This document shows, in pieces, positions 1 to 21,932 of a DNA stretch of 64,000 nt. The stretch is from Sphingomonas sp. LY54. GTDB taxonomy: Bacteria; Pseudomonadota; Alphaproteobacteria; Sphingomonadales; Sphingomonadaceae. How positions within the stretch are numbered: position 1 is the first letter of the stretch; each line of letters starts with the position of its first letter. The DNA lies in contig NZ_CP141588.1 in the NCBI RefSeq assembly GCF_035594035.1, forward strand, positions 3,068,501 through 3,132,500, written 5' to 3'. Position numbers and translations under genes: made by a program. Below the pieces are notes generated by a model that saw only the letters and a list, made by a program, of their open reading frames with translations, was not told the origin of the DNA and made no database searches.

Positions 1-201
1 CTGGCCGAGGGCGGGGAGGACCAGGCGCTGGCTGCGGTGGTGCGCCTGCTCGACCGCAAGCTGGCGGCGCTCAATCGGATCCGGCGCCATCTGAAGATCA
101 AGGCGCGGCTCGAAGTGTGGCTCTACGTCCATGTGCCGATAACCTTTGCGCTGATCGCCGCGCTCGCCGCCCATATCGTCAGCGTGTTCTTCTACTGGTG
201 A
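1..201 (+). CDS. C-terminal end of a membrane protein with a possible b-haem helix (partial)
   Basis: An open frame runs in from the left edge and stops at TGA 199-201, giving 66 residues. It has a basic amphipathic stretch (RIRRHLKIKARLEVW) followed by one strongly hydrophobic helix ending in VFFYW. Within the helix two histidines are separated by 13 residues (HVPITFALIAALAAH), a spacing like that of bis-histidine b-haem ligands in a single membrane helix. The next gene can start on the overlapping GTG at 198 or at ATG 210, so the two are probably one operon. A role in passing electrons between the quinone pool and the multihaem protein downstream is an inference. The family cannot be fixed from this fragment. 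Confidence 0.6.
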   Translation: MAEGGEDQALAAVVRLLDRKLAALNRIRRHLKIKARLEVWLYVHVPITFALIAALAAHIVSVFFYW

Positions 202-209
202 GCGGCGCG

Positions 210-2018
210 ATGGCCTTCCTTCTCCGCCTGGTCTCGCGCAGCGCCGCGGGTCGAGAGATCGTCCGCACGTCGCGGATCGAGACCGACCGGCTCGACATCG
301 GCCGCGATCCGGCCAGCCATGTCCGCCTGTCGGACCTCGCGGCGGCCTTGCACCACGCGACGATCGAGCGGACGAGCCCGGGCCAACTCAGCGTCACCGC
401 CGGGGAAGGGCTCTATGTGGAGCTCGACGGCCGCAAGAAAGTCCGCAGCGGAACGATCGAACTGCCTGCCGGCGGCGACATCCGCATCGGGAGCCACTTG
501 CTGCGCGTGATGCCCGCGGCGATCGGCGCCGAAGAAGTGGCGATCGTGATGGAGAAGGTGCCCGTCGGCGAAGCGGACCGCCGCCCGGATGCCGACCGGC
601 TCTTCTCGCTGTCCGCCGTGATGCCAGGCAAGCGCAAGACGGCGTGGATCGGTGCGCTCGCCGTGCTGGCGCTGTTCCTCGCCTGGCCGGTCTGGTCTTA
701 CTACCAGCAGCGGCAGGACCGCGAGGCGGCGCGCTTCCATGCGGACTCGATGTGGACGCCCGGCGCGCTCTCGACCGCGCACGCAGGCCTCGAAAAGGAC
801 TGCCAAGCCTGCCACGTCAAGCCGTTCGAGGCGGTGCGCGACGACAGCTGCACGGCCTGCCACACCCAGGTCCACGATCATGCCGAGCCGTTCCGGCTGG
901 CGCGGGCCCAGCCCGATCTCGGCACCCGCGGGCGGGTCGAGCTCGCCTTCAAGGAAACGTTCGGCATCCCGCCGGGACGCTGCGTCGAATGCCATGTCGA
1001 GCATGAAGGCGCGCAGAAGATGCCGGTGACGGCGCAGCGTTTCTGCAGCGACTGCCATGCCGACCTCAAGGCCAAGCTGCCCGACACCAAGCTGCCCGAC
1101 GCCGGCGACTTCGGCACCGCGCATCCCCAGTTCCGCCCGGCGGTGCTAACCGACTGGCGCGGCGACCGGCCGGTGATCCGGCGCGTCTCGCTGGACGCCG
1201 AGCCGCGCGAGGATAGCGGGCTCAAATTCCCGCACGCGATGCATCTTTCCACCACCAACGGCGTCGCCCAGATGGCGCGGCGACTGGGCCGGGATTACGG
1301 CTTCGGCCAGGCGCTCGATTGCAAGGATTGTCACGATCCGACGCCCGACGGGGTGCGCTTCCAGCCGGTGACGATGGAGGAAGATTGCGCGATGTGTCAC
1401 AGCCTCGCGTTCGACCGCGTCGACGGGACCGTGCGCACGCTCCGGCATGGCGCGCCGGGCCAGGTCGTCGCCGACCTGCGCGATTTCTACCGGGCGCGAG
1501 CGCCCAGCCCGCCGGCGACGCTCGGCGGCATGTCGCGGCGGAGGCCGGGCGACGTTCCGCAGGCGCAGGCGCGCGGGCGCTTTGCTTCGGGCACGATCGC
1601 GCCGGGCCGTGCGGAGCGGGCGATAAGGGCGGTCTTCTCGCCGGGCGGCGCCTGCTTCGATTGCCATGGCGTCGATGCGCCGCCGCGCGGCTCGCTCGCC
1701 TTCGGCATCCGGCCCGTCGCCTTCCCGCTACGCTACATGCACAAGGGCTGGTTCGACCATAAGGCGCACGAGACCCAGAGCTGCTCGAGTTGCCACGCCG
1801 CGGGACGCTCGAACAGCGCGACGGATCTGTTGCTGCCGGACCTCAAGAGCTGCCGGACCTGCCATGGCGGCGAAAGCTCCGCAACGGAGGTGCCGTCCGG
1901 GTGCGCAATGTGTCATGACTATCACATGGATGAGGGGGCGCCCGCGATGCTGGTCCGGCAGAGAGTCCGCGGCAAGAAGAAGGACACGAATGTGGCGAGC
2001 ATCGGGGCACGGAATTGA
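210..2018 (+). CDS. FHA domain-transmembrane-decahaem cytochrome c fusion protein
   Basis: A 602-residue protein from ATG 210; GTG 198, overlapping the preceding stop, is an alternative start. Residues about 18-100 look like a forkhead-associated domain (LDIGRDPASHVRL, then LHHATIE), although the usual serine of the phosphothreonine site is not evident. One membrane helix lies at about 146-163, just after KRK, which predicts a cytosolic FHA domain and a periplasmic C-terminus. The C-terminal part has ten CXXCH motifs: CQACH, CTACH, CVECH, CSDCH, CKDCH, CAMCH, CFDCH, CSSCH, CRTCH and CAMCH. The haem part resembles cytochrome c3/c7-like multihaem proteins and should accept or pass electrons in the periplasm. 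The FHA domain suggests regulation by, or docking to, a phosphorylated cytosolic partner (inference). Confidence 0.85.
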   Translation: MAFLLRLVSRSAAGREIVRTSRIETDRLDIGRDPASHVRLSDLAAALHHATIERTSPGQLSVTAGEGLYVELDGRKKVRSGTIELPAGGDIRIGSHLLRVMPAAIGAEEVAIVMEKVPVGEADRRPDADRLFSLSAVMPGKRKTAWIGALAVLALFLAWPVWSYYQQRQDREAARFHADSMWTPGALSTAHAGLEKDCQACHVKPFEAVRDDSCTACHTQVHDHAEPFRLARAQPDLGTRGRVELAFKETFGIPPGRCVECHVEHEGAQKMPVTAQRFCSDCHADLKAKLPDTKLPDAGDFGTAHPQFRPAVLTDWRGDRPVIRRVSLDAEPREDSGLKFPHAMHLSTTNGVAQMARRLGRDYGFGQALDCKDCHDPTPDGVRFQPVTMEEDCAMCHSLAFDRVDGTVRTLRHGAPGQVVADLRDFYRARAPSPPATLGGMSRRRPGDVPQAQARGRFASGTIAPGRAERAIRAVFSPGGACFDCHGVDAPPRGSLAFGIRPVAFPLRYMHKGWFDHKAHETQSCSSCHAAGRSNSATDLLLPDLKSCRTCHGGESSATEVPSGCAMCHDYHMDEGAPAMLVRQRVRGKKKDTNVASIGARN

Positions 2019-2020
2019 GC

Positions 2021-2875
2021 ATGCTGATCGCGCAGATCACCGACCTCCATCTCGGTTTCGAGCCCGACAATCCCGCCGAGTTCAACCGCAAGCGGCTCGA
2101 CCAGACGCTGCACGCCTTGTGCGAGATGCGCCCGCGGCCGGATCTCTTGCTCGCGACCGGCGACCTTGCCGACGCGGGCGACGACGACGTGTCCTACCAG
2201 AGGCTGAGCGACGCGCTCGCGGCCTGTCCGTTCCCGGTCTTCTACGCGATGGGCAATCACGACGCGCGCGATGCCTTCCTCCGCTATTTCCCGGACGTGC
2301 CGACCGTCGATGGCTTCATCCAATATGCGATCGAGGATTTCCCGCTGCGTATCCTCGTCCTCGATACGCTCGAGGACGGGCGCCACGGCGGCAGTTTCTG
2401 CGCGATCCGCGCCGAATGGCTGCGGGCGCGGCTGGCCGAGCAGCCGGACCGTCCGACCCTGCTGGTGCTCCATCACCCGCCGGTCGATTCCGGGCTGAGC
2501 TGGATGAACGAGGATCCGGATGCCGAATGGGTGCGGCGCCTGCACGGCGTCGTCTCGCAGCATCGCAACATCGTCGCGATGGTCACCGGCCACCTGCACC
2601 GGCCGGTGACGACGCAATGGGGCGGAACGACGTTGATGGTCTGTCCCTCGACGGCGCCGCAGGTCGCGCTCGATCTCGACACGATCGATCCCGACCGGCC
2701 GGACGGAAGGCCGATGATCGTTGCCGACCCGCCCGGCTACGCGCTGCATCTGTGGAACGGCACCTCGCTGATGTCGCACTACAACACCGCGGAGGAGCAT
2801 ACTGTCCTCGCCCGCTACGAGCCTGCCTTGCAACCCCTGGTGCAGATGCTGGCGGCCGAGAAGAACGGCGCCTGA
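2021..2875 (+). CDS. calcineurin-like metallophosphoesterase (CpdA-like)
   Basis: A 284-residue protein from ATG 2021; a TTG at 2015 overlapping the previous stop is an alternative. The metal-site motifs of the family appear in order: DLH near the N-terminus (ITDLHLG), GDLAD, GNHD (AMGNHDARD), HH (VLHHPP) and GHLHR (VTGHLHRPV). The closest known group is class III cyclic-nucleotide phosphodiesterases such as CpdA, which cleave 3',5'-cAMP. Substrate cannot be decided from sequence. It lies directly behind the FHA-cytochrome gene and appears co-transcribed with it. A nucleotide cyclase (19.9-21.9 kb) and a cyclic-nucleotide-binding protein (16 kb) are encoded within 20 kb. The last bases run almost into the convergent cytochrome operon, 9 bp away. 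Confidence 0.85.
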   Translation: MLIAQITDLHLGFEPDNPAEFNRKRLDQTLHALCEMRPRPDLLLATGDLADAGDDDVSYQRLSDALAACPFPVFYAMGNHDARDAFLRYFPDVPTVDGFIQYAIEDFPLRILVLDTLEDGRHGGSFCAIRAEWLRARLAEQPDRPTLLVLHHPPVDSGLSWMNEDPDAEWVRRLHGVVSQHRNIVAMVTGHLHRPVTTQWGGTTLMVCPSTAPQVALDLDTIDPDRPDGRPMIVADPPGYALHLWNGTSLMSHYNTAEEHTVLARYEPALQPLVQMLAAEKNGA

Positions 2876-2884
2876 TCCCCGGCG

Positions 2885-5800
2885 TCAGGGGACCCAGTCA
2901 GCGAAGGTGCCGGTGTCGCGCACCTTCCAGGGCAGGCCGCGGCGGGTGAGGAACAACCGCTCCATTTCCGCGCGGTTGAACGGACGCGAGCCGAGCCGCC
3001 CGAACACGGCGATCTGGCCGCCGCTCTCGTCGACGCCGCGGTCGCGGTCGAGGCCCTTGCTGAGGGCCAGCGCCGGCTTCGGCGTCTTCGCCCAGGCGAT
3101 CAGCTCGGGCCGGGGGGCGGGCGAGAAACCGTAGAAATTGGGCTGGCTGTCGGGCGAGGTGAGCTGGACCACCTTGAGGCCGTTGCGCCCGTCGGCGACG
3201 TAGGCGAACAAAGAGGCGTTGGTGGAGGCGACGATCACGTCCTCGGCATCGTTCAGCGCGCCGTCCAGCGTCACGCGCTGCGCGATCCGCGGCGCTTCGG
3301 GATTCTTGACGTCGAGGATGACGAGCCCGTCGCGTTTGGCGGCGACATAGGCATAGGTGCGGGCGAGGTAGATACGGCGGACATCGGCGAGCGGCACGGT
3401 CGCCTGCGGCACGGCGCGCGGCGCATCGAGGCGCGTGACGTCGAACAGTTTCACGCCCTCGCCATCGGTGACCCACAGATAGCGGAATTGCAGCGCCGAC
3501 GCGCGGGCGGCGCGCAGCGGCAGCGTCGTCACGTGGCGCGGCCTGGGCGGATCGTCGAGATCGACCACGACCAGCCCGGCGTCGGCCGCAATGTACGCAT
3601 AGCGGCCGGCCAGCGTGACGTGGCGGGCGCCGGCGAGCACCCCGTTCTCGTTCCAGGTGACGGCGCGCTTCAGGAAATTGTTGCGCGGCTCGCCGTCGGC
3701 GAAGGTGTCGACGTCGACGAGGATCAGGCCCTCCTCGGCATCGGTCACCACGGCGTAGCCGTAGAGGGGGTGCAGCGCCTGTTCCTGGTTCTCCGGCATG
3801 GCGGCGCGGATCGCGGCGTTGCGCTGCAGGCTGATCGGCTGGTTGGTCGCGAGCGCCATGCAAGTCGCGTTGCGCGTGGAGACGTGGGCGTCGTGGCCGA
3901 GGGGAGAGAAGGGGGCGGTGACAATCCGGTCGGAAACGCCCTTGTTGCCGACGCTGGCGATGTCATAGACGCGGAAGCCGCCGCGCCCTTCGGCAACGAA
4001 CATATATTCGCCGCGCAATTGCAGGCAGCGCGCCGGTCCGCCCGTGTCCTGGACGATGTTGGCGAACTGCTCGAGCGCCTGCGTCTCGCCGCTGAGCTTG
4101 CGGTCGAACGCCTTGCCGCGCGTCCAGTTGAGCAGCTCGCGCTTGTTGCGGTCGACGTGCAGCCGCCAATAATCCGGATAGGCGAAACGGTGGAGGTAGG
4201 AGCCGATCACGGCCTGCGGCTCGTCCCATTCGGTGACGCGCGTCGCCTGGAAGCCGTCCTCCATGCCGACGAAGGCGTGGAGGCCGACGAAGTTCACGAA
4301 ATTGGTCCCCTGCAGCAGGAGCTGGGCCATGATCGCGTTATTGTCGTTGGTTTCGGAGAGGTGGCAGTCGCTGCATTGCTTGGTCTCGGTCCGCCGCACG
4401 GTGTGCGGGAAATGCGGCGCGAAGGCCTGGGACGAGAAACCGGCGGCGCTGATCGGCGGCTGCTGGACGTAGATGCGCTCGCGATTGATGTTGGTCGACG
4501 ACAGGATCAGCGCCGAAGTCGAGCGGATCGGCGCGATGATGTTGCCCTTGGTGGTCTGGTGGCGGCCGAGCTGGAACATGTCCTCGCGCGCCACCTGCGG
4601 GTTGTAGGTGGCGAAGTTGCGCGTCTCCATCCCCTCATATTTGTGGCTGGTCGTCTTCCAGTTCGCCTCGACGGGCAGGTGGCATCCCGCGCAGGAGGTG
4701 GTCCAGCTCAAATGGCAGGTGAAGCAGGCCATCTCGTCGGGCTTGTGGGCGAGGTCCTGCTCCGCCACGCCCGGCCCGAACGCGAACTGGCCGGTCTCGG
4801 CGCCGGCCTTCGCCATCAGCTTGGCGCGTGCCGATTTCATGTTGAAGCGCGGGTGGGTGCGGTCGACGCTGTCCTTGACCAGGCTCACCTCCCATTCGAG
4901 CGCCGGATCGACGATCGAGCGCTGGACGAGAACGCGGCGGCCGTCGTCGGCGACCATCCACTCGAAGCGGCGGCGGCCGTCCTCGTTGCGGAGCAAAGCG
5001 AGGTTGGTGCCCTTGGGCGGCGCGGCGGGGCCCGAGGTCAGCAAATTGGGATAGTCTTTGGCGGTGCCGTGGCAGTCCTTGCAGCCGATCTCGACCGCAT
5101 TGGCGACCTCGCCGTAGAGGAAACCGGTGCCGTGGCTGTCGCGCGAGAAATGGCAGTCGGCGCATTGCATGCCCTTCTCGGCATGGATGTCCATCAGGTG
5201 GACCGCCTTTCCCTTCTGCTCGCCGGGCGGGACGAATTGCGGCGCGCCGGCCTTGGCGAACTTCTCGGGGTCATCGGGCAAGACGATGGCGCCGTCGGCG
5301 TCGAGCAGATTGCCGTCGCGGTCGCGCTTGTAGACCGCGCGGAAATTCCAGCCATGGCCGTGATAGTCGGCGAACTGGGTATGCTTCGCCTGCGGGTTCA
5401 CGTCGTCATGGACCCGGCGCAGGAACTCCACGTCCGACCATTTGCCGCGCGGCGCGGCGCCCTCCGGGTTGCGGTCGAGCGTTTCCAGCACCTCTTTGGC
5501 GGGGGGGTATTTCTGCCGGTCCGGCCACATCAAGGGCGCGTCGGCCTCATAATCCCACATCGTGTAGCCGAGGAAGGAGTTCAGGAAGACGTTGGGCTGG
5601 TGCATGTGGCAGTTCATGCACTGCGCGGTGCTGATCGCGCGGGTGAAGACGTGGCCGATCGGGTGCCCGCTTTCTTTTCTTAGCTGATCCCCGGCTTTCG
5701 CCGGGGAACTGCCAGGCGCACCGTCCTTCAGAGCGCCGTGGTCGAGCTTCCTCGCGATCGTGGGATCGGCGGTCGCGGTCTGGCCGTCGCGGCCGAACCG

Positions 5801-6943
5801 GGCGTAGGTGAGGCTGTGGCGCGGCTCGCGGTCATTGGCATAGACGACGTGGCAGCCAGCGCAGCCCGACTGGCGATAGTCGCCCGGCTGGTCGTTGGTC
5901 CCCATGAACCACATGAACGGATCGTTGAGGCGCGTCTTGTGGATGTTGAGGATCGGGATCGAGACGCGCAGCCCGGTGCCGGGGCCGCGATTGGACTGGC
6001 GGATGTCGGGACGGCCGCTCTCCTCCAGCCGCTGGATCGATCCGGACGGGGAGGGGAGGCCGATCTCCGGGAACTGGGTGCCGATCGTGCGGCCGCCGCG
6101 CTCGAAGACGCGGAAGACGTCGCCCGGCGGAACGACATGCCATTGCGGCAGCGGGTAGAGCGCGCCGAGCACGCCGCGCGCCGCCTGCTCGGCGTACGGG
6201 CTCCCGTCGGGCTGCATCAACGGCGAGACGATCTTCGCGGGCTCGCCTTCGCGCGTATAGGCCTCGCCGAAGATATAATTCTTCATCGGAGCGATGCCGT
6301 TATTGTAGGCCGCGCCGCCGAAAAACATCGCGCCGGTCGCCATCAGCGAGCGTTCGGCCGCCTCGATCACCTCGATATGGCAGGCGCCGCAAGCATCACG
6401 GGCGACGCGATAGTCGGACGGATTGACGAAGCGGACGAATTCCGGCGCCTCGACATTGAGCAAGGTGTAGCTGCGCTTGGGGTTTGCGCTCGACGGCCAG
6501 TGCCACGCCTTGGGGTAGAGCGGCAGGACATGGGCCCGGTCGCGCGCGGCTACGTAAGCGGGCGCCTGGTGGTCGGAAACGTCCTGGGCGAAGACGGACG
6601 GGTTGCCGCCGTGGCAGTCGGCGCAGCCCAGCACCACCGCGGGCGACTTGTGCATCGTCCGCGCTTCGCTTGCGGTGTGGCAGCTGACGCAGCCGGCGCT
6701 TTTCGCGTCGGCCTGGTCCCATTCCTGCGTGCGCGGCGCGGGCGCGGCCCGGACGAGGCTGTAATCGCGCGCGACCGGCGTCTCGCCCTCGGAGGCGACC
6801 AAGGGGGTTGTTACCGCCAACGCGAGGAGCACGGCGCCCGCTCCCAGCTTACCGGCGAAAGCCGGTATCCCGCGCGTGGCCGCTGGACCCCGGCTTTCGC
6901 CGGGGAACAGCGTGGCCGGCACGGAGGGGCGGCGGCTACCCAT
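2885..6943 (-). CDS. decahaem cytochrome c with C-terminal LVIVD beta-propeller
   Basis: A 1352-residue exported protein, the last gene of a four-gene operon. The ATG at 6943 overlaps the preceding stop (ATGA). The signal peptide is unusual: a translated palindromic repeat (residues about 13-31, containing PGESRGP and IPAFAGK) sits before the hydrophobic core (GAGAVLLALAVTTPLVAS). Ten CXXCH motifs follow from residue 85: CVSCH, CADCH, CGACH, CAGCH, CMNCH, CADCH, CKDCH, CFTCH, CAGCH and CSDCH. The last third has LVIVD-type repeats (LILVDVD, LVVVDLDDP, VKLFDVTRLDAP, LVILDVKNPEAP, LKVVQLTSPD), which form a surface beta-propeller. A second palindromic repeat is inserted near residue 415 (SPAKAGDQ). 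The combination suggests a cell-surface or periplasmic electron-transfer protein or a multihaem oxidoreductase. The substrate is unknown. Confidence 0.85.
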   Translation of the reverse strand: MGSRRPSVPATLFPGESRGPAATRGIPAFAGKLGAGAVLLALAVTTPLVASEGETPVARDYSLVRAAPAPRTQEWDQADAKSAGCVSCHTASEARTMHKSPAVVLGCADCHGGNPSVFAQDVSDHQAPAYVAARDRAHVLPLYPKAWHWPSSANPKRSYTLLNVEAPEFVRFVNPSDYRVARDACGACHIEVIEAAERSLMATGAMFFGGAAYNNGIAPMKNYIFGEAYTREGEPAKIVSPLMQPDGSPYAEQAARGVLGALYPLPQWHVVPPGDVFRVFERGGRTIGTQFPEIGLPSPSGSIQRLEESGRPDIRQSNRGPGTGLRVSIPILNIHKTRLNDPFMWFMGTNDQPGDYRQSGCAGCHVVYANDREPRHSLTYARFGRDGQTATADPTIARKLDHGALKDGAPGSSPAKAGDQLRKESGHPIGHVFTRAISTAQCMNCHMHQPNVFLNSFLGYTMWDYEADAPLMWPDRQKYPPAKEVLETLDRNPEGAAPRGKWSDVEFLRRVHDDVNPQAKHTQFADYHGHGWNFRAVYKRDRDGNLLDADGAIVLPDDPEKFAKAGAPQFVPPGEQKGKAVHLMDIHAEKGMQCADCHFSRDSHGTGFLYGEVANAVEIGCKDCHGTAKDYPNLLTSGPAAPPKGTNLALLRNEDGRRRFEWMVADDGRRVLVQRSIVDPALEWEVSLVKDSVDRTHPRFNMKSARAKLMAKAGAETGQFAFGPGVAEQDLAHKPDEMACFTCHLSWTTSCAGCHLPVEANWKTTSHKYEGMETRNFATYNPQVAREDMFQLGRHQTTKGNIIAPIRSTSALILSSTNINRERIYVQQPPISAAGFSSQAFAPHFPHTVRRTETKQCSDCHLSETNDNNAIMAQLLLQGTNFVNFVGLHAFVGMEDGFQATRVTEWDEPQAVIGSYLHRFAYPDYWRLHVDRNKRELLNWTRGKAFDRKLSGETQALEQFANIVQDTGGPARCLQLRGEYMFVAEGRGGFRVYDIASVGNKGVSDRIVTAPFSPLGHDAHVSTRNATCMALATNQPISLQRNAAIRAAMPENQEQALHPLYGYAVVTDAEEGLILVDVDTFADGEPRNNFLKRAVTWNENGVLAGARHVTLAGRYAYIAADAGLVVVDLDDPPRPRHVTTLPLRAARASALQFRYLWVTDGEGVKLFDVTRLDAPRAVPQATVPLADVRRIYLARTYAYVAAKRDGLVILDVKNPEAPRIAQRVTLDGALNDAEDVIVASTNASLFAYVADGRNGLKVVQLTSPDSQPNFYGFSPAPRPELIAWAKTPKPALALSKGLDRDRGVDESGGQIAVFGRLGSRPFNRAEMERLFLTRRGLPWKVRDTGTFADWVP
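5687..5708. repeat. REP-like palindrome inside a coding region
   Basis: A perfect 7-bp-arm hairpin, CCCCGGC (5689-5695), loop TTTC, GCCGGGG (5700-5706). On the coding (-) strand it is read as SPAKAG within the decahaem cytochrome, between its fourth and fifth haem motifs, without breaking the frame. The core is identical to one half of the paired element at 6849-6907. Confidence 0.75.
6849..6907. repeat. paired REP-like palindromes (translated repeat)
   Basis: Two hairpins in opposite orientation: ACCGGC-GAAA-GCCGGT (6851-6866) and CCCCGGC-TTTC-GCCGGGG (6888-6905), about 21 bp apart. This is the layout of the dispersed proteobacterial repeat that is often translated as IPAKAGIQ...WIPAFAGMT. 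Here it is read in frame in the N-region of the signal peptide of the decahaem cytochrome (PGESRGP...IPAFAGK). Confidence 0.8.
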
Positions 6944-8826
6944 CAGAAGGTCAGGATCGCGTTCAAGAGCACGGAATAATAAGCGTCGTGCCGGTCGTCA
7001 TTGGCGAACAATTGCCGGAAGCCCTTGCCGGGTACCAGGACGGCGGCGGAGCCGCGGAAGACGATATTCTGCGTCATCTTCGGCCGCCAGATCGCCGCCA
7101 CCGACAGATCGAAGCCGATCTCCTTCGCGATGCCGCCCTGGTTGCGCAGATTTTCCAGAACCGCGGTCTTGGCGAACCAGAGATGGTTGGCATTGGCGGT
7201 GACGCGGATCTCCGGCGTTACATCGGCATCGGCGCCGGCGCCGACCAGCATCGTGCCGGGATTGTTGAAATTGGACTGGCCCTGCTCCTTCGAGGAACGA
7301 AGCGCGTTGAGAATGCCGTTACGGCCGTTGACCGAGACGACGCGTCCGCCGCCCGCGAACGGGATGGTCTGGCGGATCCAGTAGCTGGTGTCGGCCCCGG
7401 CGAAGATCGGATTCTCGAAGATGGCGTCGAAGCCCGTTTCCTTGTCGTCATAAGGATTGCCGTCGCCGCTCGCGTAGAGGAAGGCGCCGCGGACGCGCAG
7501 CCAATCGACGTCGTAGCTCGGCTCGGCGGCGAAGAACCAGGCGCGGATGTCGGCTTTTTCGCCGGTGAAGATGCTGGCGCGGTCGCTCCCGAACGCGCCG
7601 TACGCCTGCGCCGAGAGGTTGATGCGGCCGATCCGCCCGTCGGCCGCATAGCCGATATAGGCGAGGTCGTAATTGCGTGTTTTCAGGTTGCCGATGAGCG
7701 CGGGCCGGACCGGAAAACCATTGGTGTCGACCTCGATCTCGCCGCGCTCACGGTTGGCGTTCCAGGTGAGGCTCGCCTGGCTGGTGAGGCCGACGAAGGG
7801 GAAATCCTGGCGGTAGAGGTTGGCCGTCACCACCCAGTCGTCGCGCGGCCGCTGCGTGACGTCGTTGAGGCCGCTGTTCGTGTCCTTCTCCAGCCGCCAG
7901 AAGGCGGCGAGATTATATTGGAAGCGGTTGTTGTCGCGGTTGCCGAACAGGCGCACGCCCAATTGCTGGTCATTGAACAGGAAGCCGCGGAAATCGGCCT
8001 GGAACGGCTGGATGCCGACGCGCACGGAATCGAAATCGTAGCGGTCCGAGACGTTGCGGATATGATAGTCGACGAACGCTTCCTGCACGCCGAGGAAGTG
8101 GTCGAGGCGGTCGGTTCCCGCGGACGGGCGCACCGACAGGATGCGCCGCTCGGACACGTCGACATAATTGACATTGTAGGCGAGCGTCAGCCGGTACTCG
8201 ACGTCGGGCGGCTTGTAGGCGGTCGAGCCCTTGAGCAGGGCGACGCTGGCGATGAAGGTCTGGGCGAAGACCAGGCTATCATTCTCGCCGAACACGTCGT
8301 TGCTGTCGGGATCGTCGGTGGTCTGGACGCCGACCGGGATCGGAAAGGTGCGCGGCTCGACCACCGTGTCCGAGACGGCGTTGGCGACGAAGAACCAGTC
8401 CTGGCCCTTAAGGCCGAGGAAGCGCGGCGTCCGGCATTTGGGTAGGCCTTCGCGTGCTCGGCGCGCCTGCTCCTCCGCGGTCGGGATGCAGAGCGGGCGG
8501 TCTCCCTTCAGCGTGTTCTGGTTGTACGGGTCCCACCAGCGCTCCCTGGCGATGCCCAAAGTCTCGACCAGCCGCCAGCGGTCGGGGACCGGGATCTGGT
8601 CGGTGGGAAAGGCTTCGGGCGGGGGCGAGCGGACCGCGCCGACATTGGTCTGGCTGACCGCGTCGGGCAGCTCATGCTGCGGCACGCCTGGACGGCGCCG
8701 GCCTTCCAGCAGCGGATCGTCGGCCGTGATATCCTCGATCACCGGCGGCTCGGGCGGAGGCGGCGCGGGCTGCTGCATCGCCATCAGGGCGGCCACGGGC
8801 AGGAAGGGAAGGGCGAGGGCCACCAC
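6943..8826 (-). CDS. outer-membrane beta-barrel protein of the multihaem cytochrome operon
   Basis: A 627-residue protein. It starts at GTG 8826, five bases after the stop of the lipoprotein gene; the signal peptide (VALALPFLPVAALMAMQ) supports this start. A proline-rich linker follows, then a long region of alternating hydrophobic and polar residues typical of antiparallel beta strands (for example YRLTLAYNVNYVDV and FQYNLAAFWRLEKD). The chain ends in phenylalanine (LLNAILTF), as outer-membrane barrels do. It has no CXXCH motif. Its stop overlaps the ATG of the decahaem cytochrome gene. A barrel encoded between periplasmic and large multihaem cytochromes resembles porin-cytochrome conduits such as MtrAB-type systems in layout. 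Homology to MtrB is not evident by eye, so the conduit role is inferred from context. Confidence 0.8.
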   Translation of the reverse strand: MVALALPFLPVAALMAMQQPAPPPPEPPVIEDITADDPLLEGRRRPGVPQHELPDAVSQTNVGAVRSPPPEAFPTDQIPVPDRWRLVETLGIARERWWDPYNQNTLKGDRPLCIPTAEEQARRAREGLPKCRTPRFLGLKGQDWFFVANAVSDTVVEPRTFPIPVGVQTTDDPDSNDVFGENDSLVFAQTFIASVALLKGSTAYKPPDVEYRLTLAYNVNYVDVSERRILSVRPSAGTDRLDHFLGVQEAFVDYHIRNVSDRYDFDSVRVGIQPFQADFRGFLFNDQQLGVRLFGNRDNNRFQYNLAAFWRLEKDTNSGLNDVTQRPRDDWVVTANLYRQDFPFVGLTSQASLTWNANRERGEIEVDTNGFPVRPALIGNLKTRNYDLAYIGYAADGRIGRINLSAQAYGAFGSDRASIFTGEKADIRAWFFAAEPSYDVDWLRVRGAFLYASGDGNPYDDKETGFDAIFENPIFAGADTSYWIRQTIPFAGGGRVVSVNGRNGILNALRSSKEQGQSNFNNPGTMLVGAGADADVTPEIRVTANANHLWFAKTAVLENLRNQGGIAKEIGFDLSVAAIWRPKMTQNIVFRGSAAVLVPGKGFRQLFANDDRHDAYYSVLLNAILTF

Positions 8827-8831
8827 TTCGG

Positions 8832-10805
8832 CTATTTGCCTTGGCAGACATTCTGGTCGCTGCTGCCGAGGAACGGCGCGAACGGGCAGTTCACCCAGCG
8901 CAGCCGGACCGTGCGATTGTCGACCGGGACTTCGATCCGATCCGAGCGGACGTCGGGCGCGGCGTTGCCGATCGAGCCGATCCGAACCCCGGCATTATGG
9001 ACGCCGAGGAAGCTGATCATGTCGTCCTGGTCGATGCCGTCGCCCGAAACGCCGATCGCGCCGACCAATTGCGTGCCGCGATAGACCGGCACCGCGCCCG
9101 GGAATATCTGGATGCCGTTCTGGAGCGGGTTCTGGCCCGCCGCCACGTCGGGCGTGAACGTGCAGCGCGGCGGCGTATCGGCGCCGGCGCCGAGCAGGAA
9201 GCCGGCATGATCGCGGATATTCTGCTCGACCAGCGCCGATTGCAGGCCGGTCGAGAAAGGATTGAACTCGGCGATCGCGCGCGAGAACGGGCCGGGCGGG
9301 CGGCCGAGCTCGCCGTCGGGGAAATAGGGCCGCGAGACATTGCCGACGGCGCGCGCCGAGAAGGCATATTTGCCGGTGAGGGCGGCCTGATCGGCGAAGA
9401 AGGTGCGGGCGGCGCCGACGAACATGCGCACGTCGGCATCGGGATTGCTCTGCAGGAAGGCGCCGGCGCGCGCGCTCGAGAAGAAGGCCGCCGTGCGGGC
9501 CTTCTGCAGCGACACGTCGATGCCGAAGACCGGGGCGTCGGGCGACCGGACGATGCCCAGCACCGCGCCATGGGTGTCGACCGCCGCGATCGACACCTGC
9601 GCGCGGCTGTCGAGCGGGCGGCGGATCTGCGCCCGGGCTGCGCTCATGATCTTGAACGCCTCCTCGAGCAGGGCGGTGACCTCGGCCTGGCTGAGCGGCT
9701 GCGCGACGCTGCCGGCATCGGTGCCGCCGCGCAGCGGGAAGCGGTTGCCGCCGGCCCCGTTGCTGAGCACGAAGGCGTCGCGGTTGGAGAATTCGGCGGG
9801 CGCGGCGGGGCGGATGCCGGACGCGTCGCTGCCATAGACGCGGCCGGCAAGGACGCCGCCCGAACTGTCGTAATAGCCGCGGACCGACGTCAGGACGCCG
9901 GCCGTGCCGTTGATCGCCGCGAAGGTCGGTGCCGAGGCCGGATTGCTGGCAAGATCGCCGGGCTCGGCGTCGGAGAAGCGCAAAGTCGTTCCGTCGACCG
10001 GAATGCGATCGGCGCGGATCGCGTCGGGCGCGGCGAAGCCGGTGCTGCCGGCGAGGGCGACGATCTCCTCGGCGTCGCGATCATCGTCCTGCGTCTCGGG
10101 ATCGAAGCCGTAGATCCCGTCGGCCATGATCCCGACGCCGCCGACGAGTACGCCGTTCTTGTAGAGCGGAAATCCCCCCGGATCGGCCGCTAGGCCGAGC
10201 GGCGATCGCTTGGGGCCGATGAAGGCGGCCGGCCCGGCTGTGCCGGCGAAGCGCGCGGCGAGATCGGAGCAGGGGAGCTGGCTGAACTGCACGCCGAACA
10301 GCGGGCCGCTCTCGAGGCCGCGCGCGACCGCCGATGGCGGGAAATGCTCCTGCACGATCATCGAGGCGGTGCGGGTTGAAAAGGCGTTGCCGCCCGAGGA
10401 GAGATAGGCGCCGGTGATCGCCTTGGCGATCGCGCCCGCGGCGGCCGCGGGGACATCGATCCCCTGCAGATCGTGGGTGCTGCCATTGGGCCCGCGCGGC
10501 ACGGCGAGGCGCTGGTTGGCGTTGGTCATCGCGAAGATGGCGAGGACGTTGCCGACCCGGTCGACGACGGCGATCGTGGCGGGGAGCGTGCGCGCGGAAG
10601 CTTCCGCCACTGCCTGGGCGATGACGCGTCCCACATCGGCCTCGCTCAGCGCCTCGGCGGCCGGCACGGCGTAGAGATTGGCCGGCGTCGGCGCGGGCGG
10701 CGGCGTGACCGGATCCTGCGTGCCGCCTCCGCCGCCGCCGCCGCCCCCGCCGCCGCATGAGGCGAGGAGCAAGGAGACGATTGCGATAGTAGGGGTAAGG
10801 CGCAT
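8832..10805 (-). CDS. lipoprotein with two GlcG/HbpS-like (haem-binding family) domains
   Basis: A 657-residue protein; ATG 10805 overlaps the preceding TAA by one base, so translation is coupled. It has a lipoprotein signal (MRLTPTIAIVSLLLASC) followed by eleven consecutive glycines and a proline-rich linker. Two GlcG/HbpS (DUF336) modules follow, one opening near ALSEADVGRVIAQAV and the other near PLSQAEVTALLEEAF. Each has an AVVD/AAVD strand and a glycine-rich GGVGI or GAIGVSGDGID element. Single-domain relatives include the extracellular haem-binding HbpS of Streptomyces and GlcG. Tandem fusion as a lipoprotein inside a multihaem operon is unusual. It might deliver or hold haem or act as a structural partner of the cytochromes (inference). 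Some cysteines in the second module could form a disulfide. Confidence 0.8.
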   Translation of the reverse strand: MRLTPTIAIVSLLLASCGGGGGGGGGGGTQDPVTPPPAPTPANLYAVPAAEALSEADVGRVIAQAVAEASARTLPATIAVVDRVGNVLAIFAMTNANQRLAVPRGPNGSTHDLQGIDVPAAAAGAIAKAITGAYLSSGGNAFSTRTASMIVQEHFPPSAVARGLESGPLFGVQFSQLPCSDLAARFAGTAGPAAFIGPKRSPLGLAADPGGFPLYKNGVLVGGVGIMADGIYGFDPETQDDDRDAEEIVALAGSTGFAAPDAIRADRIPVDGTTLRFSDAEPGDLASNPASAPTFAAINGTAGVLTSVRGYYDSSGGVLAGRVYGSDASGIRPAAPAEFSNRDAFVLSNGAGGNRFPLRGGTDAGSVAQPLSQAEVTALLEEAFKIMSAARAQIRRPLDSRAQVSIAAVDTHGAVLGIVRSPDAPVFGIDVSLQKARTAAFFSSARAGAFLQSNPDADVRMFVGAARTFFADQAALTGKYAFSARAVGNVSRPYFPDGELGRPPGPFSRAIAEFNPFSTGLQSALVEQNIRDHAGFLLGAGADTPPRCTFTPDVAAGQNPLQNGIQIFPGAVPVYRGTQLVGAIGVSGDGIDQDDMISFLGVHNAGVRIGSIGNAAPDVRSDRIEVPVDNRTVRLRWVNCPFAPFLGSSDQNVCQGK

Positions 10806-12187
10806 TAGCGGAGCTTTCCTATCGCGGCGGCGGCGCGGCCGAGGCTGGCCCGGAATTCGCGGGGTCGGTAAGCATTGGGGTCGCGCACGGCCTGGTAGGC
10901 GCTGTTGATGTCGGCGCGGATGGTTTCGGCGCTGGCGGTCTGGACGTCGCCGGCATTGACGAGCGCCGAGAGCAAGGTGTCGGTCGCCATCACGGCCTGC
11001 ACGCTGCCGGCATAATCGGTGAAGCGCTCGGACACGGCGTTGCTGGTGATCGCGTCGATGATCGCGAAGGTCTGGTCGCGGCCCATCGGCGCGCCGGCAA
11101 AGGCGCTGGCGAGCGCACGCGCGCTTTCGCGCAGGGCGGCGGCGGCGGCGATGGCGGAGGCGCGGTCCTTGGCGATCGTATTGTGGAAGGCGCGGCTGTC
11201 GCGGTCGAAGCGCGCCGCCTGAGCGGGCACGACCACGCGCGCGGCGGCCGAGAGCATGATCATGTTCTCGTCGTTGAACGCTGGCATGCCCTGCGGGATC
11301 GGCCGTCCGGGATTGGCGAGGGCGGTCGGCTCGAAGCGCGGATCGTCCGAGATCGGGCGGTGGCAGGTGTGGCAGTCGAAGAAATAGAATTCGGGGAAGA
11401 GGCCGTCGCTGCCGCGCGCGCCCGCGAACAGGGTCAGCGCACGGTCCAGCGCCATCGCCTGGCCGATCGCCCACATCTGGACGTTGCTCGTGCGGCGCTT
11501 GCGGCTTGCATAGTCGCCGTCCTCGTCATGATGCTGCTGCAGCGTCGAGAAGAGGTCGAGCTCGAAGCTGATGCGCGGGTGGCCGGCCGCCATGATGCGG
11601 TGATTGACGAACTGGCCGGCGTCGCTGCTGCCGAAATGGCAGTCGAGGCAGACCGAAGCGCGCGCCTTGGGGTTGTCGAGCGGGACCATGCCGCGGGCGA
11701 CGTTGGCGGCGTGGCTGGCGCCGACCGCATAATGGCTCGCCAGCCAGGCCGAGGCGGCGCCGTGGCAGCCCTCGCAGCCGACGCCGTCCGAAGTCTGGAA
11801 GCGCGGGCCGCGCGCGCCGGCGGCGGCCGGCGTCGCATGGCAGCCGAGGCACATCGGCGCGCTGGTCGCCTCGCCGATGCCGAGCCGCTGGGCGATGGCG
11901 CGCGAGCGCGGTTCGGCGAGCACCCGCCAAGCGCGGCTGTGGGCGCCGCTCGGGCTCGCCTCGTCCTGCCAGATCATGAGCTCGTCCTGCCGGACGATCT
12001 TGCCGTCGGCCTCGGAGCGGCCGTGGCAGGTCGTGCCGCCGCAGCTCGCCACGCCGACCAGGGAGCCGCCACGCTGGGCCTGGGCGGTCGCGGTCGCCGG
12101 CCCGGGCCGCAGCACGAACGCCATCGCCAGCGCACAAAGCAAAGCCGTCGCCAGAAACATGATCGCGCTGTTGCGAGTGCGCCCCAT
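10805..12187 (-). CDS. multihaem cytochrome c, cytochrome c554-like
   Basis: A 460-residue exported protein, the first gene of the four-gene cytochrome operon. ATG 12187 is chosen because AGGGGGA lies just upstream; the overlapping GTG at 12190 is too close to it. The signal peptide is hydrophobic (SAIMFLATALLCALAMAF). Canonical haem motifs are CLGCH, CEGCH, CLDCH and CHTCH. An additional N-terminal CGGTTCH (CX4CH) fits a fifth, non-canonical haem site, as in cytochrome c554-type proteins whose first motif is CxxxCH or longer. Conserved histidines (GAHSRAW, HRIMAAGHPR) may be distal ligands. The C-terminal 180 residues are helical and lack haem motifs. It probably carries electrons in the periplasm towards or from the downstream barrel and decahaem protein (inference). 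Confidence 0.82.
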   Translation of the reverse strand: MGRTRNSAIMFLATALLCALAMAFVLRPGPATATAQAQRGGSLVGVASCGGTTCHGRSEADGKIVRQDELMIWQDEASPSGAHSRAWRVLAEPRSRAIAQRLGIGEATSAPMCLGCHATPAAAGARGPRFQTSDGVGCEGCHGAASAWLASHYAVGASHAANVARGMVPLDNPKARASVCLDCHFGSSDAGQFVNHRIMAAGHPRISFELDLFSTLQQHHDEDGDYASRKRRTSNVQMWAIGQAMALDRALTLFAGARGSDGLFPEFYFFDCHTCHRPISDDPRFEPTALANPGRPIPQGMPAFNDENMIMLSAAARVVVPAQAARFDRDSRAFHNTIAKDRASAIAAAAALRESARALASAFAGAPMGRDQTFAIIDAITSNAVSERFTDYAGSVQAVMATDTLLSALVNAGDVQTASAETIRADINSAYQAVRDPNAYRPREFRASLGRAAAAIGKLR

Positions 12188-15848: not shown

Positions 15849-15956
15849 CAACTTCTCCGGATAGGTTAGAATATGGGTCGCCTGACTGGCGAGTTCGTTC
15901 TAACCCGGCAGAAATCGGATAGTTTCGGATGTCACACTGAAAATTTTTTAACCGCA

Positions 15957-15979: not shown

Positions 15980-16681
15980 TCAGGCCGTCACGCCGCCCGC
16001 CTCGGCGATCCGCTGGTTGCTGGCGCGCAATTTGCTGCGCAGCGCGGCGGTGAAGCCCTGCTCCAGCGCGTGCCGGACATCGTCATGCGCGACCAGATAA
16101 GGCCGGAGCGCGCTGGCGGGCGCGCACCAGAAGCGCGCGGGACCGGCGAGGACGACGGTGGCGCTCGCCTGGTCGCCGGAGAGGACGGTGACTTCACCGA
16201 TCAAGTCGCCGTTGCGGCACAAGCCGACCTGGCGGCCCTGGCTCATCACGCGGGCCTCGCCCGCAGCGAGGTAGAAGAGGTGGCTGACCGCCTCGTCCTC
16301 GCGGGTCAGCGTGTCGCCTTCGCGGCCGCTCAGCCAAAAGCCCTGATCGAGCAGGTGGCGGGCGCGGTTGCGGGTGAGGCCGGCAAGGATGCCCTTCAGC
16401 ATCTCCTCCTCTTCGGGCGTGAAGCGGACCTTGCTGCTCTCGTAGAGGCGCTGGCCGAGCAGGATCAGGGTCGCTCCGAGCAGCAGGCCCCACCAGATTG
16501 CGAGCAGGACGTTGCCGGACCAGTAGAGGGCGTGGAACAGGCCGATCAGCGCGCCCGCCGCCACGATCGCGCGGAGACGGTGCAGCTGCCGGCGGAACAT
16601 GGCGATGACCAGCAGCAAGAACGGCAATTGGCCGATCAGGTCGCCCCACGAGATTTCAGACCAGAAACCCTGAACCTCCAT
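15980..16681 (-). CDS. Popeye-like membrane protein with cyclic-nucleotide-binding fold
   Basis: A 233-residue protein. The N-terminal third has two or three membrane helices (about 12-28, 38-55 and 57-76; the last is LAIWWGLLLGATLILL). The segment from about 85 to 190 reads as a cyclic-nucleotide-binding beta-roll (GDTLTREDEAVSHLFYLAAG, then NGDLIGEVTVLSGDQASATV). Helices followed directly by such a domain, with no effector behind it, is the layout of Popeye (POPDC) proteins. The phosphate-binding cassette has GE but lacks the arginine usual in CRP-type sites, as Popeye proteins also do. It probably binds or senses cAMP at the membrane; a nucleotide cyclase gene is 4 kb away. The gene stands alone, divergent from the M3 peptidase gene. 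Confidence 0.7.
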   Translation of the reverse strand: MEVQGFWSEISWGDLIGQLPFLLLVIAMFRRQLHRLRAIVAAGALIGLFHALYWSGNVLLAIWWGLLLGATLILLGQRLYESSKVRFTPEEEEMLKGILAGLTRNRARHLLDQGFWLSGREGDTLTREDEAVSHLFYLAAGEARVMSQGRQVGLCRNGDLIGEVTVLSGDQASATVVLAGPARFWCAPASALRPYLVAHDDVRHALEQGFTAALRSKLRASNQRIAEAGGVTA

Positions 16682-19867: not shown

Positions 19868-19868
19868 A

Positions 19869-21875
19869 TCACTTGGATCCCAACACATAGTGCCCCCCCG
19901 GACCGGCTTCCCTGATGCGATACACGAAATTGGCGAGCGCCGCATCATCCTTGTGATTGTCCGAGACAGCCTGCAGCTCTGCAAGAGCCGTCCTATCATT
20001 GGCTTCGAAGCGCTCCCAGAGCTTAACCAATGTTTGCCGCAGACCGGCGTCCATTTGCGGGACGGGCTCCCAGACTTGGACGGGAGTGGCGCGGCCCGAC
20101 AGCACGATCCGGCCCATCGGCCGGAAGATGTCGAGCGTCGATTCCCGTTTCGCCTCGTCGCTGACCAGGATCGTCGTCTTCAGGGACTTGTTGGCCGATT
20201 CGAGCCGTGCGGCGGTGTTCATGCCGTCGCCGAGCGCGGTGTATTGGATGCGGCCCTCGCCGCCGAAATTGCCGACCACCGCCTCGCCGCGGTGCAGGCC
20301 GACGCGGGTGCAGCCGAGCGGCGGGATTTCGGGCCCACCGGCGCGACGGAATTCCTCGCCGCATTCGTACATGGCGACGGCGGCGCGAGCGGCCCGGTCG
20401 GCGTCGTCGGGCCGCGCGATCGGCGCGCCCCAGAAGGCCACGACGGCGTCGCCGACGAACTTGTCGATCGTGCCGCCATGCTTGAGCACGGTGTCGCTCA
20501 ATTCATCGAGATAGCGGTTGAGGAGGGACGACAATTGCTCGGGCTTGATCGCGTGGCTGAGCTTGGTGAAGCCCTCCATGTCGGTGAACATCGCGTAGAT
20601 CTGCTTCTTCTCGCCCTTCAGCGCGAGCCGCTCGGGATCGCGCAAGATCTGGTGGGCGATGTCGGCCGGGAGATATTTGCCCAGCGTATGCTCGGCGAAG
20701 CGGCGTTCCTCGGCGCCGACCGCGCGCGCGGCGGTGCCGATCGCGGCGAAGGCGAACAGCCAGCCGACCGCCCAGCCGAAAGCGGGCAGGCCGAGCGTGT
20801 CGACGTTGATCGACTGCAGATAGAAAGGGAGGGTGACGAAGAAGATCACCTGGCCGACGAGGACGAGCGCCAGCTTCCAGCTCCGCATCTCGAGCAGGCT
20901 GGTGAGCCCGCCGGCCACCACCACGGCGAAGGCGACCGCCCAGAGCGACCAGGACGGGATCGCGCCGGGCATGCGGCCGTCGAGCAATTGAGCGAGCAGA
21001 TGGGCGTGTATGTCCAGGCCCTTGGTCAGCCGCCCGTCGACGCGCGTCATCGGCGTCTCGTAATCGTCCATGTCCTGGATATCGCCGCCGATCAGGACGT
21101 AGCGACCCTCGACCTGCGGGCGCAGGGCCGCCGCCATGTCGGTGGCGAACAGGTCGATCGGCAGTTTGGAAAAGACCGGATATTCCTCGCTCCTGGGCAG
21201 GCGGAAGGCGATGCTGCGGGTGTAGTCGCGAAACCGCGGCTGCTCCGGCGCCATCGCATTGGCGAGCAAAGGCGGCAGGCTTGCGGGCTGCGCGGGCCAG
21301 GACCGGGTGACGCCGTCCTCCAGATCGGGCTCGAGCATGATGCTGGCCGGCTTGACCGGACCCGGCTTCAACTGGCCGAGGAAGCTGGTGAGATATTCCT
21401 CCTGCCACAGCTTGATGTAATCGGGATTGGTCGCGTTCGAGGCGAAGGCGAGATAGGTCGGCGTCTTCATGCCTCGGAAGGCGTCGATCAGGATCGGGTC
21501 CTCGGCCTGGGGCTGGTCCATCAATATGTCGATCCCGATCGCCTTCGGGTTCATCGCGTCGAGCTTCAGCAGCGCATCGGCGAGCATCTTGCGGTCGAGC
21601 GGCGAACGCTTCGCCAGCGCCTCCAGCGTCTCGTCGGTATAGACGACGAGCACGATGCGATCGTCCTGATCGACCCGATCGGCGGTCTCCAGCAGCCGCA
21701 GGTCATAGAGGCCGCGCTCGGCGTCCTTGGCGAGCGGTATTTCCCAGCTGTAGCGCGCGAAGAGCAGGCCGATGACCAGGAAGAGAGCGGTCGCGGCGAG
21801 CCGGAACGGCCCGATCTGCCGGGCGACGCGGCGGGCCCGGGTCGGCCAGTTCGGACCTTCGCTCTCGCCTCCCAC
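19869..21875 (-). CDS. CHASE2 sensor adenylate/guanylate cyclase
   Basis: About 668 residues. GTG 21875 has GGGGAG six bases upstream; a TTG at 21890 would add five residues. After a first membrane helix comes an extracytoplasmic CHASE2 domain (about 40-315; DDRIVLVVYTDETL, IGIDILMDQPQAEDP, YVLIGGDIQDMDDYETP). Two or three further helices follow, then a class III cyclase domain. It keeps both metal-binding aspartates (MFTDMEGFT and KFVGDAVVAFWG) and the GDGMNTAARLE motif. It should make cAMP (or cGMP) in response to a periplasmic signal. The FecR-like gene lies immediately downstream. Possible readers of the product nearby are the Popeye-like protein at 16 kb and the CpdA-like enzyme at 2 kb. 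Confidence 0.88.
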   Translation of the reverse strand: MGGESEGPNWPTRARRVARQIGPFRLAATALFLVIGLLFARYSWEIPLAKDAERGLYDLRLLETADRVDQDDRIVLVVYTDETLEALAKRSPLDRKMLADALLKLDAMNPKAIGIDILMDQPQAEDPILIDAFRGMKTPTYLAFASNATNPDYIKLWQEEYLTSFLGQLKPGPVKPASIMLEPDLEDGVTRSWPAQPASLPPLLANAMAPEQPRFRDYTRSIAFRLPRSEEYPVFSKLPIDLFATDMAAALRPQVEGRYVLIGGDIQDMDDYETPMTRVDGRLTKGLDIHAHLLAQLLDGRMPGAIPSWSLWAVAFAVVVAGGLTSLLEMRSWKLALVLVGQVIFFVTLPFYLQSINVDTLGLPAFGWAVGWLFAFAAIGTAARAVGAEERRFAEHTLGKYLPADIAHQILRDPERLALKGEKKQIYAMFTDMEGFTKLSHAIKPEQLSSLLNRYLDELSDTVLKHGGTIDKFVGDAVVAFWGAPIARPDDADRAARAAVAMYECGEEFRRAGGPEIPPLGCTRVGLHRGEAVVGNFGGEGRIQYTALGDGMNTAARLESANKSLKTTILVSDEAKRESTLDIFRPMGRIVLSGRATPVQVWEPVPQMDAGLRQTLVKLWERFEANDRTALAELQAVSDNHKDDAALANFVYRIREAGPGGHYVLGSK

Positions 21876-21932
21876 CAAGCACTCCCCCAAGCGGCCAAGA
21901 GCGACGGAGCTTAGTGCTTTCGCCTGCGGAGT

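Follow-up and report, generated by a model that had tools for sequence, protein, structure and literature searches.

A stretch of 64,000 nucleotides from the complete 3.28 Mb genome of Sphingomonas sp. LY54 (contig NZ_CP141588.1; G000:C1:3068501-3132500; hereafter the window) was analysed for a group of multihaem cytochrome genes at its left end, together with 12.5 kb of sequence before the window. An earlier note on this DNA had described about 25 c-haem attachment motifs, an outer-membrane barrel and a lipoprotein within 12 kb, and had proposed a conduit for electrons across the outer membrane. What it described is one half of a larger system, joined by an input module encoded on the other strand. 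The two halves are read here as a candidate path from cytosolic NAD(P)H to an extracellular acceptor.

Genes and proteins of the locus

The minus-strand genes form a tightly coupled quartet encoding a pentahaem cytochrome of the C554 type (C554), an HbpS-like lipoprotein, the barrel and a giant decahaem cytochrome with LVIVD repeats (the giant; Table 1). The couplings from which a single operon had been proposed are present: C554 and lipoprotein are joined by the stop/start overlap TAATG, lipoprotein and barrel are separated by 5 bp, and barrel and giant are joined by the overlap TGATG. Convergent with the quartet is a plus-strand unit that reaches ∼3.1 kb past the left edge of the window. It starts with a flavoprotein of 811 amino acids (aa), followed after 28 bp by a cytochrome b-like protein of 291 aa (bMem) and then by the decahaem cytochrome FHAcyt and a phosphoesterase; a TPR protein of the CcmH/CycH type lies on the other side of the input genes. 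FHAcyt therefore belongs to this unit and not to the minus-strand operon in which the earlier note had placed it, and its start lies near position 210 instead of 117.

With ten CXXCH motifs each in FHAcyt and the giant, and four CXXCH and one CX4CH in C554, the three cytochromes hold 24 CXXCH and one CX4CH, 25 motifs in all, in agreement with the earlier count. Shuffled versions of the three proteins contained 0.007–0.034 CXXCH on average, so that the motif numbers are far above chance. No other complete open reading frame (ORF) of at least 100 aa in the window had two or more CXXCH. A scan of the whole-genome DNA with a CXXCH-like pattern gave 125 matches against 100 in a reversed control and was not used; a promoter and terminator scan was at chance level, and an Rfam scan of window positions 1–26000 gave no match.

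The flavoprotein combines a pyridine-nucleotide-disulphide oxidoreductase fold with two cyclic-nucleotide-binding domains and ferredoxin domains. Its family (27 aligned rows) conserves 16 Cys in four groups of four, a pattern that predicts four [4Fe–4S] sites. PF00027 matched in two stretches (119.3 bits), and two phosphate-binding cassettes are recognizable, the first reading FGE.GL..GR.R..T and the second G-E-M, followed at some distance by R and A (all letters retained in at least 90% of the 27 rows); both domains are thus predicted to bind cyclic nucleotides by Pfam match and cassette together. A conserved NR pair after the second Rossmann motif (27 rows) would suit NADPH. The segment that had been noted as a possible b-haem helix is the end of bMem, which begins outside the window and has hydrophobic segments at residues 28–46, 58–76, 92–116, 123–141 and 264–288. 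Five of its His (97, 111, 121, 269 and 283) are invariant in 18/18 aligned sequences, and four of the five form pairs 14 residues apart in two hydrophobic stretches. Such spacing is that of the His pairs in two-haem cytochromes b; bMem had no Pfam or NCBIfam match. The FHAcyt family profile matched GarA FHA domains (E 1.3e-8), and a transmembrane helix lies at residues 175–193 (numbered from the start at 117). The phosphoesterase matched PF00149 (68 bits, cut-off 21.5) and the NCBIfam SpdA model with 129.9 bits, below the cut-off of 400, and is therefore SpdA-like at most.

C554 matched PF13435 (37.6 bits, cut-off 20.8) and has an N-terminal hydrophobic segment at residues 9–27, consistent with a periplasmic location. 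Besides its five motif His exactly five others are invariant (19/19 rows), and in FHAcyt exactly ten others accompany the ten motif His (15/15 sequences). Because the invariant non-motif His equal the haems in number, both proteins look like pure bis-His wires. This parity in two of the three cytochromes argues for wires over a reductase of the nitrogen or sulfur cycle. A known soluble enzyme of that kind, which the earlier note had held up as the opposing possibility, was rejected on the same ligation pattern and on the database matches of the three window cytochromes, in which no such family rose above its cut-off; among the 32 members of the giant family, three weakly touched the NrfH model and one each weakly touched two nitrite-reductase models.

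The giant matched LVIVD (70.6 bits, cut-off 20.2) and had no relative in the PDB by sequence at E 0.01. All ten motifs are invariant in 32/32 rows, together with six Met and 14 further His, one of them within the propeller; with 14 extra His for ten haems, a hidden catalytic site could be present. Foldseek searches with the AlphaFold2 model of the giant returned mostly β-propeller proteins, including AztD, BamB and cytochrome cd1 nitrite reductase, and allowed no conclusion on the haem part. In sphingomonad giants haems 4 and 5 are separated by an insert that has at least three His in 60/72 sequences and at most one in ten sequences from L114–L124 (85 sequences were compared; three without a match to the flanking pattern were dropped). 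The composition hints at a metal-binding loop, which the core function would not need. At about residues 400–426 of giant homologues this insert is variable in length and often rich in His and Asp, and it is absent from the ten other-lineage sequences compared. The insert of the window protein itself is His-poor and holds a palindrome resembling repetitive extragenic palindromic (REP) elements. This palindrome (CGGCGAAAGCCGGGG and near copies) lies in frame within the giant gene at 6853–6902, in the signal region, and at 5689–5703, in the variable loop.

The proposal that the third gene of the quartet encodes a barrel was borne out by an AlphaFold2 model with 18 long strands. The folds closest to it are those of AlgE and of the substrate-selective OprD/Occ channels, at 13% identity, and the modelled fold is thus AlgE/OprD-like and not MtrB-like. 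About 140 residues precede the first strand and include a conserved DRW...DPYNQNTLKGDRP stretch; many charged residues are invariant, a 72-residue loop between strands 13 and 14 is conserved, and identity across classes is 51–82%. No PDB relative was found by sequence. The window protein had no Pfam match; at E up to 1, a set of 49 members matched six families between them, and an MtrB-type model was not one of these. Pfam does hold an MtrB/PioB model. Alginate_exp matched 2/49 members, the window protein not being one of them. No MtrB chain appeared in the structural alignment, an absence that was not used as evidence. Neither the window barrel nor any of 80 barrel ORFs contains CXXCH. In several relatives (G111, G099, G133 and others) the barrel match is split, running up to residue ∼112 and again from ∼142, so that the segment leading from the conserved N-terminal motif to the first strand is variable there.

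The description of the lipoprotein as carrying haem-family domains also held: a signal, beginning at the ATG at 10805, is followed by Cys and poly-Gly, and PF03928 (HbpS-like) matched with 76.7 bits (cut-off 25). It has no CXXCH haem motif. Of 90 homologues examined, 78 had a recognizable lipobox, and in 73 of these at least three Gly occur in the six residues after the Cys. A poly-Gly tether of this kind is a trait of surface lipoproteins.

Table 1. Features of the putative electron-path locus and its surroundings, in window coordinates
Feature	Position	Strand	Remarks
bMem, C-terminal end of 291-aa inner-membrane cytochrome b-like protein	1..201	+	Gene start 675 bp before window (L002:11827-12702)
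FHAcyt, FHA domain, membrane helix and 10 CXXCH cytochrome, ∼602 aa	210..2018	+	
SpdA-like calcineurin-like phosphoesterase, putative cyclic-nucleotide phosphodiesterase	2015..2875	+	Overlaps FHAcyt gene
Giant decahaem cytochrome, C-terminal LVIVD propeller repeats, 1352 aa	2885..6943	-	
18-stranded outer-membrane β-barrel (model), 627 aa	6943..8826	-	
Lipoprotein, HbpS-like domains, poly-Gly tether after lipid Cys, 657 aa	8832..10805	-	
C554-type secreted pentahaem cytochrome, 461 aa	10805..12190	-	4 CXXCH + 1 CX4CH
Membrane protein with cyclic-nucleotide-binding domain	15980..16681	-	PF00027, 45.0 bits
Small protein adjoining cyclase	19130-19999		FecR-like by eye, no Pfam match
CHASE2 and adenylate/guanylate cyclase	19869..21890	-	Probable cyclic-nucleotide source

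Conservation and co-occurrence

Relatives of the barrel were sought in 84,980 species genomes; 317 stretches were confirmed and the best 80 were kept. In these 80 loci the quartet was recovered in the order described for the window (barrel 80, giant 79, lipoprotein 78, C554 71), the absences falling by their coordinates at locus ends. Haem numbers varied little in the recovered ORFs, with four CXXCH in 70/71 C554 and ten in 70/74 giants and 28/29 FHAcyt. The lipoprotein stood beside the barrel in 78/80, 29/31 and 15/15 loci of three sets, with the misses at contig or locus ends. Among the matches listed, the closest named barrel relative was from Sphingosinicella sp. LY1275 (97% identity).

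Outside the order, 11 loci of up to 20 kb were read (L114–L124; nine from genomes within the class and two from elsewhere in the phylum). In ten of them a single co-directional cluster holds the genes for the flavoprotein, cytochrome b, FHAcyt, lipoprotein and barrel, and in nine of these ten the giant is next in the cluster, the contig of L116 ending there. The two convergent units of the window therefore belong together and need not be neighbours.

Within the order 48/197 genomes, which all belong to one family, were found to have the barrel; 48/197 have a close cytochrome b (matches at E 3e-80 or better), and the two sets are identical. The two genes lie within 12 kb of one another in 26 of the 48, on the same contig but 21 kb to 2.2 Mb apart in nine and on different contigs in 13; since they are far apart in many genomes, linkage alone does not explain their co-occurrence. 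The 197 genomes are related, and no kinship-corrected probability is attached to this result. Both genes are absent from the two listed genomes of the same genus and from members, among those listed, of several genera that are mixed in this respect. The cytochrome b search returned 56 genomes at E 0.001, of which eight weak ones (24–30% identity, E 7.7e-4 to 4e-14) were excluded from the count. Among 16 barrel genomes chosen because no flavoprotein had been seen in the fetched locus, a close flavoprotein was present in 15.

The barrel was also found in 19/289 genomes of a class sample, 16 of them outside the family, and in 12/397 genomes of a phylum sample, four of them outside. With divergent queries, the matches listed included barrel homologues in Tahibacter, Dokdonella and Rudaea and giant homologues in Colwellia, Thalassotalea, Haliea and Halioglobus; each homologue search scored about 8000 candidates at least, of which the best 120 were listed. 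The protein family is large and wider than the range observed. Thirteen plasmid records contain the barrel (12 Sphingobium and one Sphingopyxis), two of which are typed as conjugative. The whole set including the cyclase is carried by the megaplasmid pMSHV of Sphingobium herbicidovorans MH (L149), which is typed as conjugative, and the quartet by pMC4 of Sphingopyxis indica (L150). The annotation of these genes is generic (for example hypothetical protein, heme-binding protein or multiheme c-type cytochrome).

The cyclase shares the strand of the barrel and is encoded 11 kb upstream of it. It matched PF05226 (92.2 bits) and PF00211 (class III cyclase; 56.9 bits), and no second match to PF00211 occurs anywhere in the genome. 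At E 1e-127 or better, 49 genomes have a close cyclase, namely 41/48 barrel genomes against 8/149 others (Fisher P 6e-27, not corrected for kinship); in 26 of the 48 it is on the strand of the barrel and at most 30 kb upstream of it. Five genomes with weaker matches (E 1e-43 to 6e-77) do not enter this count: G051, G111, G133 and G182, which have the barrel, and G175, which does not. In some loci, such as L053 and L014, C554 is directly preceded by the cyclase and by a relative of the small FecR-like protein; in pMSHV the cyclase precedes C554 in the same orientation, with a two-partner secretion pair in between. The cyclase is thus a frequent and not an obligatory part of the system, and it also exists without the barrel. 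Relatives of the membrane protein at 15980..16681 occur in five of the loci compared (L003, L012, L013, L034 and L127), and it is a possible further effector, not a universal one.

Some neighbouring observations stand apart. An autotransporter is encoded at window positions 12825–15851, between cyclase and quartet, where pMSHV has its two-partner secretion pair (with a 2092-aa protein); the presence of a surface adhesin near a putative conduit may be more than chance. Four of the eight genomes with weak cytochrome b matches were read around the match (L141–L144), and in these four cytochromes with 19 to 49 haems and ferredoxin-like genes lie nearby, one 1229-aa protein having 49 CXXCH; a distant cousin of the cytochrome b (25–27% identity) was seen in three of these four loci (L142:9813-15529 from G123, L141, L143 and L144).

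A candidate trans-envelope path and its rivals

The motifs, the domains, the predicted barrel fold, the conserved gene order and the co-occurrence were observed directly, and from them we infer the redox partners and their order, the direction of flow, its gating, the crossing of the outer membrane and the nature of the acceptor. The preferred reading, to which a probability of roughly 0.58 is given, is a complete trans-envelope electron path that is fed by NAD(P)H, responds to a cyclic nucleotide and probably runs outwards to an extracellular acceptor. Cytosolic NAD(P)H would reduce the flavoprotein, first at its FAD domain and then at the four predicted [4Fe–4S] sites; bMem, as a two-haem cytochrome b, would take the electrons across the inner membrane, the FHA-anchored decahaem cytochrome would bring them into the periplasm and the soluble pentahaem C554 would bridge the periplasmic gap. 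At the outer membrane the 18-stranded barrel, the giant and the tethered lipoprotein would together form the assembly at which the acceptor is reduced. The signal would be made by the CHASE2 cyclase, sensed by the two cyclic-nucleotide domains and removed by the SpdA-like enzyme; as these domains sit on the flavoprotein, the input enzyme itself would be gated. Co-inherited multihaem cytochromes, a barrel, a lipoprotein and an inner-membrane electron source are what a trans-envelope conduit needs, and their joint occurrence supports the conduit. With NAD(P)H and not quinol as the feed, a role in redox balancing, detoxification or assimilatory metal reduction seems more likely than one in energy-conserving respiration.

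Several points weigh against this path. A barrel of 18 strands is apparently too narrow to wrap a decahaem cytochrome or an MtrA-like plug as MtrB, with its 26 strands, does. The giant has a plain signal-like segment with no lipobox or lipid anchor by eye, and exposure of the giant and the lipoprotein at the cell surface is presumed; the AlphaFold2 model of the giant (1196/1352 residues, 32 sequences) has a predicted local distance difference test score (pLDDT) of 51.7, with the C-terminal propeller alone modelled well. The FHA domain of FHAcyt scored 20.1 bits in Pfam, just under the cut-off of 20.7. The parts are also not always found together: in L114 the input genes are not within the 20 kb read, and the same holds for the quartets of L125–L128, from the same family (in L128 C554 is split into two ORFs); of the 11 loci outside the order seven have C554, in two cases on the opposite strand, and one has an SpdA-like gene; G840, reached via the contig of a metagenome-assembled genome (MAG), gave a weak partial flavoprotein match alone; and 7/48 barrel genomes are without a close cyclase while 8/149 genomes without the barrel have one.

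The chief rival, unlikely but to be taken seriously, is a substrate channel with a periplasmic reductase. Here the barrel would admit a small anion or a metal chelate and the giant would reduce it, drawing its electrons from the NAD(P)H module described above, so that no electron would cross the outer membrane. The nearest folds of the barrel, its invariant charged residues and its conserved loop all suit a channel, and the 14 invariant non-motif His and six Met of the giant leave an open site possible; a metal could be bound by its variable His-bearing insert. The poly-Gly tether of the partner lipoprotein points instead to the surface, and the conservation of the barrel across classes suits a protein–protein complex as well as a channel. 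Flow in the opposite direction, in which an extracellular reductant such as Fe(II) would be oxidized at the outer membrane and its electrons brought in as in Pio and Mto, is improbable. The list of parts may in principle be reversible; however, the input ends at a soluble flavoprotein of the NAD(P)H type, nothing points to an energy source that could drive the uphill reduction of NAD(P)+, and the named carriers (Sphingomonadales, Colwellia, Haliea and Tahibacter) are not known to be lithotrophs. Least probable is an assimilatory or haem-related redox function at the surface, in which the lipoprotein would bind haem or iron and the path would reduce it for uptake or release. The HbpS-like family of the lipoprotein and its almost constant place beside the barrel would agree with this; against it, the annotation of pMSHV gives 19 features around the system, none of them a TonB-dependent receptor or a haem oxygenase, and the barrel was not found in 149/197 genomes of the order, so that it is not a general iron route.

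Extracellular electron transfer has been studied mostly in anaerobic metal reducers and iron oxidisers. The full candidate path occurs in about a quarter of the sampled genomes (48/197) of a mostly aerobic order and also in Gammaproteobacteria. If the outward path is real, an AlgE-type barrel can serve a cytochrome conduit, the donor of a conduit can be NAD(P)H instead of quinol and a cyclic nucleotide can gate the flow; extracellular electron transfer would then be gated by a second messenger at the level of the protein itself. The wider proposal of an unnamed, widespread class of outer-membrane conduits in aerobic Pseudomonadota, with an AlgE-type barrel, driven by NAD(P)H, gated through the cyclic-nucleotide domains of the flavoprotein and encoded both on chromosomes and on megaplasmids, of which some are typed as conjugative, is put forward tentatively, at somewhat under even odds.

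Comparison with known systems

A description of this gene set was not found by title or abstract in mostly open-access literature, among the top-ranked matches of long lists. In the main text of PMC11475568 a term search gave no mention of sphingomonads. Genes for MtrA, MtrB and DFE-type outer-membrane cytochromes have been reported in a Sphingomonadaceae MAG (PMC13055281); that conduit, reported by annotation, would be a different system.

The closest cluster by content is extHIJKLMNOPQS of Geobacter, a selenite/tellurite cluster that comprises a porin-like outer-membrane protein, a lipoprotein, cytochromes with five, 12 and ten haems, a cytochrome b of the inner membrane and an Fe–S protein (PMC5877670, PMC6148476), with rhodanese-like ExtH and Rieske ExtO among its products (PMC5877670). 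Similar kinds of parts are thus gathered in one cluster. The giant shows local similarity to ExtM (32/32 members), ExtN (23/32) and ExtO (22/32), but lies far below the NCBIfam cut-offs (74.0/800, 28.8/200 and 28.9/200 bits, respectively) and has a propeller fused to its haem part. The Pfam matches of the neighbouring genes scanned included neither a rhodanese nor a Rieske domain, and the input is a flavoprotein with cyclic-nucleotide domains. ExtI, with 380 aa in its mature form and 12 or 21 predicted membrane segments in the two papers (PMC5877670, PMC6148476), is smaller than the barrel, which matched no Ext porin model.

AlgE and the OprD/Occ channels share the modelled fold, whereas this barrel sits among cytochromes, with no alginate genes among the neighbours scanned or annotated. 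The C554 profile matched cytochrome c554 (1bvb) over residues 18–112 (E 4.6e-8); the protein differs in having five motifs including CX4CH, ∼460 aa and apparently His as all five distal ligands. In contrast to the fused cytochrome–porin Cyc2, the barrel chain carries no CXXCH.

The view that the components are unrelated to known conduits largely stands: no PDB relative of the barrel or giant and no MtrB match was found, and short local matches alone remain, namely those of the giant to ExtM and of FHAcyt to an MtrC/MtrF domain model (20.1 bits, below the cut-off of 30) and to 6r2q_A (E 4.5e-5), which we take to be the MtrA chain in an Mtr complex. The system was not assigned to MtrCAB, Cyc2 or Ext, a placement rejected on the type of barrel, the haem-free barrel and lipoprotein and the Ext scores below cut-off. 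The parallel drawn with MtrABC in the earlier note holds for the logic and not for the parts. As in MtrCAB, an inner-membrane donor, a periplasmic multihaem cytochrome, an outer-membrane barrel and a large decahaem cytochrome occur together, and a secreted multihaem cytochrome, C554, lies in the cluster beside lipoprotein and barrel in 71/80 loci. The barrel, however, is by its model of the 18-stranded AlgE type and not of the MtrB/PioB or OmbB type, and the lipoprotein is haem-free and the decahaem protein no lipoprotein, so that a surface multihaem lipoprotein is lacking. The best-supported reading is of a system that works like a porin–cytochrome conduit while standing outside that family in sequence and fold.

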